From Corallococcus coralloides DSM 2259 (GTDB taxonomy: Bacteria; Myxococcota; Myxococcia; Myxococcales; Myxococcaceae): a stretch of 64,000 bases of DNA. Of this stretch, positions 48,448-51,063 are shown in pieces. A program made the translations under genes and the position numbers. The notes beneath the pieces are model-generated. The model had not been told where the DNA came from, ran no database searches, and saw only the letters and a list, made by a program, of their open reading frames with translations. How positions within the stretch are numbered: the first letter of the stretch is position 1; each line of letters starts with the position of its first letter. The DNA lies in assembly GCF_000255295.1 (NCBI RefSeq), contig NC_017030.1, positions 9,646,328-9,710,327 on the forward strand, given 5' to 3'.

Positions 48448-48978
48448 TCAGCGGTTGAGGCGGTTCAGTTCGTTGCGGCAGACGTTGCAGGGGCCCAGCG
48501 ACTTGCGGTCGATGTCCTGCGGGGACTGTGGGAGGAACATCACGCAGCGCGAGTCCTCGCAGTACGACAGGCCGATGAGGTGCCCGGCCTGGTGCACCGC
48601 CTCCACCTGCACGCGGCGGCGCAGCGTTTCGCCCTCCGCGCCCTGGCGCAGCCGGTACAGGCTCATCACCGCGACCTTGGACTCCCGGTCCGCCTGCCCG
48701 AAGACGAAGGGCGAGTCCGGTTCGAAGAGGTCCGCGTCCGTCACGCCCATCACCAGGTCCTGCGGCGACTCATCCAGCACCGTGCCCAACCGGCGCATGA
48801 TGGCGTTGCAGTGGTACTGGCCGCGGTCCTTGTTGAAGGCGTAGGCCGGCGACGACAGCGCCATCCGGCTCACGACCGTGCTGACGCCCAGATGGGTCGC
48901 CAGCGGATCCTGCAAGGCATTCACGAGCGCGGACGGTGGACTGCCCACGGTGACCAGCAGGAGCGTCTTCTGCGGCAT
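48448..48978 (-). CDS. Archaemetzincin-like protein with catalytic Glu replaced by Gln
   Basis: 176 aa. C-terminal motif AVHQAGHLIGLSYCEDSRCVMF, with CNVC 21 residues later, equals the archaemetzincin signature HExxHxxGxxxCx4CxM...CxxC, but the general-base Glu is Gln (codon CAG at 48589-48591). Zinc ligands and the structural Cys4 site remain. So it is a zinc-binding but probably non-proteolytic member. The adjacent tRNA-Gln and rtcB genes lie on the same strand. No signal peptide; cytosolic. Confidence 0.88.
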   Translation of the reverse strand: MPQKTLLLVTVGSPPSALVNALQDPLATHLGVSTVVSRMALSSPAYAFNKDRGQYHCNAIMRRLGTVLDESPQDLVMGVTDADLFEPDSPFVFGQADRESKVAVMSLYRLRQGAEGETLRRRVQVEAVHQAGHLIGLSYCEDSRCVMFLPQSPQDIDRKSLGPCNVCRNELNRLNR

Positions 48979-49035: not shown

Positions 49036-49109
49036 TGGCTGGGGCGCAAGGATTCGAACCTTGATAATCAGAGTCAAAGTCTGACGTCCTGCCATTAGAC
49101 GACGCCCCA
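49036..49109 (-). tRNA. tRNA-Gln (anticodon TTG)
   Basis: On the minus strand: acceptor stem TGGGGCG/CGCCCCA, D arm TAATGGCA loop, anticodon stem TCAGA/TCTGA with loop CTTTGAC (anticodon TTG), T arm CAAGG/CCTTG with TTCGAAT. Discriminator G and encoded CCA end (49038-49036). 74 nt with CCA. No integrase nearby, so no sign that it is an attachment site. Confidence 0.96.
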
Positions 49110-49288: not shown

Positions 49289-50446
49289 TCAGCCCTTCAG
49301 CACGGCCAGGGGCGTGAGCCGGACGCGGGGCGTCACGAGGTCCTCCTCGTCCTCCAGCACCTCGGTGAGGTCCCGGTAGGCGGCAGGGGCCTCCTCCACC
49401 AGGGCGTGCGTCCGGCCCGGGTCGAACACCACGCGGCGCAGGGCGTGGACCAGGGCGTCCGGGCGGATGCGGGCGCGGGCCTCCGTGCGGGTGAGCACGC
49501 GGCCCGCGCCGTGCGAGCAGGAGCGGAAGGCGCGGGGCTCCCCCCGCCCTTCGACGACGTAGGAGGCCGTGCCCATGGAGCCGGGGATGAGCCCCCGGGC
49601 TCCGGCATCCAGCCCCACCGCGCCCTTGCGGTGGACCCAGAGCGCGCGGCCGAAGTGCGTCTCGGAGGCGACGTGGTTGTGGTGCACGTCCACGGTGCGG
49701 TCCGGATCCGGGGCCACGCCCAGCACGTCCGCCAGCACCGCCAGGGCCCGGACGGCGAGCTGGTCGCGGTTCGCACGGGCGAAGCGGCACGCCAGGTCCA
49801 GGTCATTCACGCAGGCCCGGCCCGCTTCGGTGCCGGTGTCGAGCGCGGGCGGCGTGCCCTGGCCGAGCGCCTGGGCCACGCGCTGGTGGTGCTCCCCCAC
49901 GGCGCCCCCCACGCCCCGTGAGCCGGAGTGGATGAGCAGCCACAGGTCCCCTGCCCCATCGCGATCCAGCTCCAGGAAGTGGTTGCCTCCGCCGAGCGTG
50001 CCCAGGTGGCGCGGCGCCAGCCGCTCCCAGGCATGCGCGAGCTTCTGGGTGGACAGTGGTGGAGCTTCGAGCCCCGGCGGCAGGGGCAGACCCCGTCCCC
50101 GGTGCACCGCGTCCCCCACCGGGATGACCCGGGCGAGCTGGGACAGGAGCCGCTCCAGGTCCGCGCGCGAGAGCGAAGCGGCGGGGAAGGCGAAGCGGTG
50201 CGCGCTCACGCCGCACCCCAGGTCGTTGCCCAGCGCGCCGGGGACGACGTGGGCTTGCGTGGCGAAGACGGTGCCCACCGCCACGCCCGACGCGAGGTGC
50301 ACGTCCGGCATCACCGCCACGTGCTCCGTGACGTAGGGCTGCGCGGCGAGATGCTGGAGCTGCTTCAGGGCCGCGGGGGGCACCGTGCGTGCCCACGCAA
50401 GGAGGGGCACCGCGCCCGGTGGGACTTCGAGGACGCGGGGCATCAT
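49289..50446 (-). CDS. rtcB: RtcB-family RNA ligase
   Basis: 385 aa. Metal-site motifs are in order: ALGNDLGCGV (Asp/Cys ligands), LGTLGGGNHFLELD, HSGSRGVGG, VDVHHNHV, WVHRKGAVG, and the guanylate-linked His region RSCSHGAGRV (about residue 311). RtcB seals 2',3'-cyclic phosphate and 5'-OH RNA ends using GTP. The family includes enzymes for tRNA and rRNA repair. Tandem ATGs at 50446 and 50443; the upstream RbfA-like stop overlaps them. No archease gene is beside it. Confidence 0.94.
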   Translation of the reverse strand: MMPRVLEVPPGAVPLLAWARTVPPAALKQLQHLAAQPYVTEHVAVMPDVHLASGVAVGTVFATQAHVVPGALGNDLGCGVSAHRFAFPAASLSRADLERLLSQLARVIPVGDAVHRGRGLPLPPGLEAPPLSTQKLAHAWERLAPRHLGTLGGGNHFLELDRDGAGDLWLLIHSGSRGVGGAVGEHHQRVAQALGQGTPPALDTGTEAGRACVNDLDLACRFARANRDQLAVRALAVLADVLGVAPDPDRTVDVHHNHVASETHFGRALWVHRKGAVGLDAGARGLIPGSMGTASYVVEGRGEPRAFRSCSHGAGRVLTRTEARARIRPDALVHALRRVVFDPGRTHALVEEAPAAYRDLTEVLEDEEDLVTPRVRLTPLAVLKG

Positions 50447-50841
50447 GCGTCACCCCCGTCCTCTGCTTCGGTGCGTGGGGCGGTGCCCACGAGGACGAAG
50501 CGCAGGTGCGGGGTGCGCTTGAGGTTCAGGTGCTGCGCGAGCCGCGAGCGCAGGAAGCCCTCCGCCCGGGCGAGGGCCTCCTTCACGGCGGCGGGGTCCG
50601 CGTCGTGCGGCAGCGAGTAGCCGATGCGCACGGTGCGGCCTTCCGGGGACAGCTCGCACGACGTCAGCGTGACGCCTTCGAGCCTGGGGTCGGACAGCTC
50701 ACTCCGGAAGAGCAGCGAGACGTCCTCGGAGAGGGTGGACTGGACGCGCAGGTGACGCGCGGACGGAGCTTCGGCATGGAACAGCGAGGAGCCCGAGCGC
50801 CGGATGGACGCGCGGGTACGGCGATGCTTGGAAGAGGACAT
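50443..50841 (-). CDS. RbfA-like ribosome-binding factor
   Basis: 132 aa. KH-like RbfA signature: DPRLEGVTLTSCELSPEGRT and an AxG-type helix kink in ALARAEGFLRSRLAQ, then LKRTPHLRFVLVG. RbfA binds 16S rRNA near the 3' minor domain (helix 44/45) in 30S maturation. The basic N-terminal tail (SSSKHRRTRASIRRSG) is longer than usual. Normally rbfA sits in nusA-infB operons, while here it overlaps rtcB by 4 bp. Whether another copy exists elsewhere cannot be seen. Ribosome site weak (CAGGAA 16 nt upstream). Confidence 0.85.
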   Translation of the reverse strand: MSSSKHRRTRASIRRSGSSLFHAEAPSARHLRVQSTLSEDVSLLFRSELSDPRLEGVTLTSCELSPEGRTVRIGYSLPHDADPAAVKEALARAEGFLRSRLAQHLNLKRTPHLRFVLVGTAPRTEAEDGGDA

Positions 50842-50862
50842 GAACGAAGACGGATTCCTGCG

Positions 50863-50882
50863 GGCCGTGCCGGAGCACGGCC
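50863..50882 (-). promoter_or_regulatory. Hairpin upstream of the rbfA-like start
   Basis: GGCCGTGC and GCACGGCC with a 4-nt loop, an 8-bp GC-only stem ending about 20 nt before ATG 50841 on the minus strand. It lies just upstream of the CAGGAA ribosome site and could influence translation of the rbfA-like/rtcB pair. Confidence 0.4.
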
Positions 50883-51009: not shown

Positions 51010-51063
51010 CTAGAAGCGCGACCCCGCGGAGCGGACCGAGACCACCTTGGCGACACGTCCCAT
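51010..51063 (-). CDS. Tiny ORF, possible 17-aa leader peptide
   Basis: MGRVAKVVSVRSAGSRF from ATG 51063, after a strong GGGAGGT ribosome site 5 bp upstream. Points toward the rbfA-like/rtcB pair (169 bp away). No homology recognised. In a 435-bp region (50842-51277) that otherwise has no gene, it could be a leader peptide or chance. The plus-strand half of this region is the promoter area of the Lpd-like gene. Confidence 0.35.
   Translation of the reverse strand: MGRVAKVVSVRSAGSRF

Follow-up and report, generated by a model that had tools for sequence, protein, structure and literature searches.

The locus analysed here raises the question of what a gene for an RbfA-like protein does directly ahead of, and overlapping with, the gene of the RNA ligase RtcB in Corallococcus coralloides DSM 2259, whose genome is one contig of 10.08 Mb. 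The two genes lie in a window of 64,000 nucleotides (by which we mean the whole stretch of DNA that was analysed), and the following features were read in and around them:

50443..50841, minus strand: rbfA2, gene of a second, divergent RbfA-like protein of 132 aa with a basic N-terminal tail and a KH-type core (ATG start, ORF reading, PF02033)
49289..50446, minus strand: rtcB of the RbfA-linked clade, 385 aa, presumed catalytic residues retained (PF01139, model, tree)
50443..50446, minus strand: ATGA, the 4-bp overlap of rbfA2 and rtcB (start codon at the same offset in 27 of 31 family loci with both genes)
51010..51063, minus strand: leader ORF MGRVAKVVSVRSAGSRF including the stop, preceded by GGAGGTG (similar ORF in 28 of 29 family loci)
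50849..50859, minus strand: motif AGGAATCCGTC (window copy) immediately 5' of the rbfA2 start, GGGAACCGTT in most relatives (25 of 29 loci)
50863..50882, minus strand: hairpin 5' of the rbfA2 start (identical sequence in same-genus loci only)
49036..49109, minus strand: tRNA-Gln(TTG), flank of the operon
48448..48978, minus strand: archaemetzincin-like gene (NF033824, "non-proteolytic"), flank of the operon

The original prediction had claimed a 4-bp overlap of the two genes, and we indeed find both ORFs, with the ATGA in the stop region of the 132-codon rbfA2 ORF also providing the start of rtcB on the minus strand. The RbfA signature that it had ascribed to the upstream protein is recognised by PF02033 (E 1.2e-17, 64.5 bits against a cut-off of 34.7). 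Whether this was the only rbfA of the genome had been left for checking: a profile search of the genome located a canonical rbfA at position 7,596,319 (107.7 bits), flanked by truB on one side and by a DUF503-like gene and infB on the other (gene names from ORF reading), which rules out the window gene as the sole copy; the place in the infB operon is taken by that other copy (L001). The window protein is thus a second, divergent RbfA, here called RbfA2. Like canonical RbfA, it has a KH-type core matching PF02033 with an A-x-G stretch, but it is encoded at another locus, carries an extra basic N-terminus, matches the profile only as far as position 91 of 105, with the last part missing, and reaches 42 bits against the RbfA equivalog TIGR00082, below the cut-off of 51.15.

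For an alignment of RbfA2 we started from 32 loci and left out five (L039, without an adjoining RtcB; L044, with an in-frame stop; L049, a near-duplicate; L057, without a clear start; and L063, with a broken frame). All 27 members of the alignment match PF02033, with E up to 0.001, and K108, P111, L113 and F115 are invariant in these relatives. The long basic N-terminus pointed out earlier is real, conservation at R7 and R8 reaching 90% or more across the 27 aligned relatives, some of which have only a short tail. The structural model of RbfA2 is of middling confidence (pLDDT 75.3, pTM 0.60), the basic N-terminus being a low-confidence part; its best Foldseek matches are RbfA entries (1jos, E 3.1e-6), with TM-scores to RbfA of 0.43-0.57, and the protein models as an RbfA-type KH fold.

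Among the family genomes sampled, a strong RbfA match (at least 103 bits) is present in 59 of 59, and was taken as the canonical copy, the operon context having been read in the window genome only; a second, weaker match occurs in 32 of the 59 (partial in G053). Directly 3' of RbfA2 and on the same strand, an RtcB of the linked kind was found in 31 of the 32 fetched loci, the exception being L039, and 27 of these 31 have a start codon at offset -4 relative to the end of the RbfA2 stop; the remaining four are L044, with an in-frame stop, L055 and L063, with broken frames, and L058, with the start at -13. At L064 (G020) the RbfA-like gene is absent. Across the order, we read searches with the RbfA2 profile and with the window RtcB on the same 145 genomes, and among the matches listed 69 genomes have both genes, four have an RbfA2-like gene only (G005, G071, G072, G077), none has the linked RtcB only and 72 have neither; the RtcBs listed fall on two sides of an identity gap (at least 56% on one, at most 42% on the other). 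Fisher's test gives p of about 5e-37 for this co-occurrence, a value that overstates independence since the genomes are related. In the 69 genomes with both genes, the matches share contig and strand and are separated by no more than about 160 bases, with RtcB continuing on another contig in G105 and G111. The pairing is far beyond chance, among genomes that are related, and the conservation of the rtcB neighbourhood in relatives, on which the original prediction had made itself depend, holds across genera, families and phyla.

Some copies show signs of decay. The RbfA2-like genes of L098, L099 and L101 (G071, G072 and G077) have no adjoining RtcB of the linked kind and could be relics; that of L098 has lost K108 and the R of an LKR motif. 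An apparent frame break with the partner gene intact was seen in RbfA2 of L107 (G106) and in RtcB of L055 (G017), and could in both cases be an assembly error.

Losses of the whole pair can be followed between its flanks, as the archaemetzincin-like gene and the tRNA-Gln gene stay put in genomes without the operon. In G031, which belongs to the same genus, 35 residues of the RtcB end are left between tRNA-Gln and an FAD oxidoreductase gene, and neither RbfA2 nor the leader has a match between the two flanks, both of which are intact; one deletion removed RbfA2 and most of RtcB. G053 retains remnants of both genes, G113 has the flanks without the pair, and the 7 kb read in G015, G038 and G046 yielded no more than the M54-like gene and tRNA-Gln. 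The pair is dispensable and tends to be lost as a unit, the lone RbfA2-like genes of G071, G072, G077 and G005, of which the first and the last were read, being the exceptions. The tRNA-Gln gene itself is ruled out as a member of the module, since it stays where the operon is lost.

These losses bear on the idea that the pair works not in repair but in normal 16S maturation, at an assembly step needing both proteins. To our knowledge 16S maturation has no ligation step, which counts against this idea, as do the patchy occurrence of the pair, its loss within a genus (G031) and the canonical-type RbfA found in every family genome sampled. On its side stands the description of RbfA proteins as assembly factors in the available text of PMC8201178, and we consider such a role very unlikely.

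The linkage extends beyond the order. When public genomes were scanned using the RtcB alignment, 80 of 589 relatives were examined, and five of the 80 have an RbfA-like ORF directly upstream: four are Myxococcota bins (the copy in L115 being broken) and one is a Planctomycetaceae bin (L157), whose genome also carries a canonical-type RbfA. Sorangium cellulosum So ce26 likewise has a second RbfA-like gene overlapping an RtcB gene. A sample of 294 genomes of the phylum of L157 (Planctomycetota) gave an RtcB match in 84; among the best 30 of these loci, an RbfA-like ORF immediately precedes RtcB in the top 12 (44-100% identity), with the -4 start in 11 of them, and in none of the other 18 (at most 43%). 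In 282 genomes of the Sorangium phylum, 14 RtcB matches were obtained at a stricter limit, 13 of them with an RbfA-like ORF and nine of these with the -4 start; the unlinked one, L252, holds only part of an RtcB, close to the end of its contig. None of the 14 RtcB matches in 347 genomes of the Acidobacteriota sample has an RbfA-like ORF. Beyond these groups, coverage consisted of the list of 80 loci and five plasmid loci.

Of eight divergent linked RbfA-like proteins, four exceed the Pfam cut-off and four score between 19.4 and 32.1 bits, and judged by their sequences the linked proteins of the divergent loci are weak but recognisable RbfAs. An N-terminal stretch D-D-G-x-D-P-R occurs in those of L203, L204, L206-L209, L245 and L249, with near forms in L157, L205 and L250, and is a possible docking peptide in the Planctomycetota and the Sorangium group. 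Closer to the window, too, RbfA2 evolves faster than its partner RtcB (for example 62 versus 75%, and 36 versus 61%, identity to the window proteins). With its score below the equivalog cut-off and the last part of the profile missing, its binding to the 30S subunit may have changed.

Archease is the activating partner of other RtcBs, and RbfA2 might similarly be a general RNA-binding or activating partner that guides RtcB to different RNAs, for example tRNA or mRNA fragments. The divergence of RbfA2, its sub-equivalog score and its faster evolution would fit such a role, RbfA scores drop to 19.4 and 21.2 bits in the most distant linked proteins, and a basic tail would bind many RNAs. The conserved part is, however, the RbfA core, and the small subunit is where characterised proteins of this fold act; the adjoining tRNA-Gln gene stays behind when the operon is lost. 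We regard a general partner as doubtful, while giving it serious consideration.

The RtcB protein of the window is a clear family member (PF01139, E 4.9e-84, 283.4 bits against a cut-off of 27), and its model (pLDDT 92.6) has as best structure match 4dwq, an RtcB fold. The RtcB alignment omits the same five loci as that of RbfA2 as well as L055, with its broken RtcB. D75, C78, N155, H156, H173, H256, H312 and K384 are invariant in eight aligned RtcBs; after solved RtcBs, we take these to be the metal-binding residues and the GMP-accepting histidine. It is one of seven RtcB matches (PF01139) in the window genome; Maughan and Shuman have reportedly characterised RtcB1-3 of Myxococcus xanthus. 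In a FastTree phylogeny of 160 RtcBs, the 43 linked RtcBs together with the truncated L252 form one exclusive clade (support 0.987), which indicates that linkage to rbfA is a property of one old RtcB lineage. Of the six other RtcBs in the window genome three were included, and these fall outside the clade, as do the RtcBs of Acidobacteriota, the unlinked ones of Planctomycetota and one PrfH-linked RtcB2 of E. coli (L240). A tree of RbfA proteins (58 linked, 40 canonical, two orphans) did not resolve into clean separate clades; it includes one and the same locus twice (L200 and L241), and two sequences extracted as canonical (L016, L027) have oddly long branches, perhaps owing to faulty extraction.

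We favour, with roughly balanced confidence, the explanation that the two genes form an RNA-repair operon in which RbfA2 would guide its partner RtcB to 30S subunits with cut 16S rRNA, because an RbfA paralog is tied here to an RtcB of its own. The KH fold of RbfA, which RbfA2 keeps, is known to bind 30S subunits in the region of the decoding-centre end of 16S rRNA. RbfA2 would then be a dedicated docking and remodelling subunit that delivers RtcB to damaged 30S particles, with 16S rRNA cut near the decoding centre or the 3' end, leaving 2',3'-cyclic phosphate and 5'-OH ends, as the substrate; RtcB would seal the break and RbfA2 would aid the re-docking of helix 44. What the analysis itself establishes is the module: an RtcB with its expected active-site residues, the RbfA fold, the coupled genes, their linkage across phyla, an exclusive RtcB clade and joint loss. 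The contact between RbfA2 and RtcB, the rRNA substrate and the source of the damage (ribotoxins, MazF or other stress) are parts of this explanation that we infer. Both halves of it have parallels in the available text of published work. RbfA is needed to position helix 44 in the decoding centre (PMC8201178), and human RBFA recruits METTL15, an enzyme acting on helix 44 (PMC10828496). The activity of E. coli RtcB on MazF-cut 16S rRNA, invoked in the original prediction, is reported as such, and RtcB2 with PrfH shields E. coli against a toxin whose cut in 16S rRNA falls between A1493 and G1494 (PMC9223846); PrfH/RFH-RtcB pairs have been interpreted as ribosome rescue coupled to RNA repair (PMC6514570). 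Against guided 16S repair we count that, according to the same partial source, a high dose of rtcB2 alone, without its partner, also protects E. coli (PMC9223846), and further the divergence of RbfA2, its middling model, its apparent lack of the C-terminal helix through which METTL15 recognises human RBFA, the four lone RbfA2-like genes and the dispensability of the pair.

The closest analogue is the RtcB2-PrfH operon of the E. coli ATCC 25922 type, which also combines a specialised RtcB with the gene of a ribosome-acting partner and which, as far as the available text goes, acts on cut 16S rRNA (PMC9223846), an activity that is only proposed for RbfA2-RtcB. There, however, the partner is a release-factor homologue encoded after rtcB, whereas in the window an RbfA precedes rtcB. 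That the window RtcB might itself be a PrfH-linked RtcB2 is ruled out by its scores below the cut-offs of TIGR03073 (142 versus 271.8 bits) and PRK09588 (175 versus 407 bits), by the tree (with a single E. coli RtcB2, L240, outside the clade) and by the absence of PrfH, for which no match above the cut-off was found in the window genome (best 97.1 versus 166.65 bits). In the human RBFA-METTL15 couple an RbfA-family protein likewise brings an enzyme to helix 44 of the small subunit, but the enzyme is a mitochondrial methyltransferase bound via the C-terminal helix of RBFA (available text of PMC10828496), a helix that RbfA2 apparently does not have. RtcA-RtcB operons and RtcB-archease pairs also give RtcB a dedicated partner gene (PMC10630183, in its accessible part), yet that partner is an end-processing cyclase or an activator and not a ribosome-binding protein. 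A known anti-phage system was ruled out, PADLOC giving no match.

We did not find the pair described in the literature searched, whose coverage stopped short of most subscription papers and of the main catalogue of RtcB neighbourhoods. If guided 16S repair is true, the pair would be a second, unrelated pairing of RtcB with a homologue of a ribosome factor beside RtcB2-PrfH, so that ribosome repair would have several designs; a function would be assigned to one RtcB out of the seven in the window genome, and RbfA proteins could be adaptors that bring enzymes to helix 44, like human RBFA. With two small proteins, the question is directly testable.

Upstream of the pair, the 17-aa ORF that the original prediction had singled out exists (51063..51010), and a similar short ORF was found in 28 of 29 family loci by a scan that required a Shine-Dalgarno-like site, with candidates picked by eye and without a random control. 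It lies 113-288 nt upstream of RbfA2, has 17 codons in 17 of the 28 loci, a strong Shine-Dalgarno site and a core like MGxVxNGVSGxS, and starts with ATG, GTG or TTG in 25, two and one cases, respectively. Codons 6 and 7 read N-G in 22 of 28 (K-V in the window copy), and the variation at their third positions is what a translated ORF would show. In codon 3, by contrast, the third position is T in all 28 and the first two vary, a hint that the RNA or DNA itself is under constraint.

Just before the RbfA2 start, a GGGAACCGTT-like motif occurs at 25 of 29 loci, as counted on the same loci on which it was defined, with 10 other matches in 723,956 bases (both strands). The motif presumably has GGGAACC in common with the loop of 16S rRNA helix 45, which may be chance. 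Pairing between the motif and the leader ORF is predicted to be possible in many loci, with duplex energies at a mean z of -1.7 against shuffled leaders; the window copy does not outdo shuffled leaders (z +0.6). Full folds give the pairing as dominant (mean motif probability above 0.5) in only 7 of 28 loci, and swaps of leader and start region among 14 representatives gave p 0.07, or 0.25 and 0.08 with some loci left out.

A leader ORF with a ribosome-sensing role ahead of the operon is, on these sequence features, possible. A far-reaching version would have RbfA2 as the 30S-homing subunit of its own RtcB branch, found in at least two phyla, and would place the Myxococcaceae operon under the switch of a leader ORF acting as a gauge of ribosome health: damaged ribosomes would be loaded at its strong ribosome-binding site and then stall, and the stalling would expose the RbfA2 start region, so that broken ribosomes would turn on their own repair. 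We consider this version unlikely. The leader ORF and the conserved start-region motif also suggest shared control, as would befit two merely co-expressed stress proteins, RtcB acting alone (for example in capping RNA or DNA ends) and RbfA2 aiding assembly under stress; the RtcB paralogs of M. xanthus do differ in their activities, capping included, according to the accessible part of PMC10630183. But the link has outlasted the divergence of phyla in the same order and mostly with the same overlap, and a linked RtcB without RbfA2 was found in none of the 145 genomes, so that mere co-expression appears quite improbable to us.

The strong hairpin that had been noted before the rbfA-like start does exist (50882..50863), but the 96-nt fold is only mildly better than shuffled sequences (z -1.74, 12 of 200 as good). 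As a conserved control element it is ruled out, for among 29 upstream stretches compared by eye its sequence occurs in four loci only, all of the same genus (the window, L033, L036 and L043).
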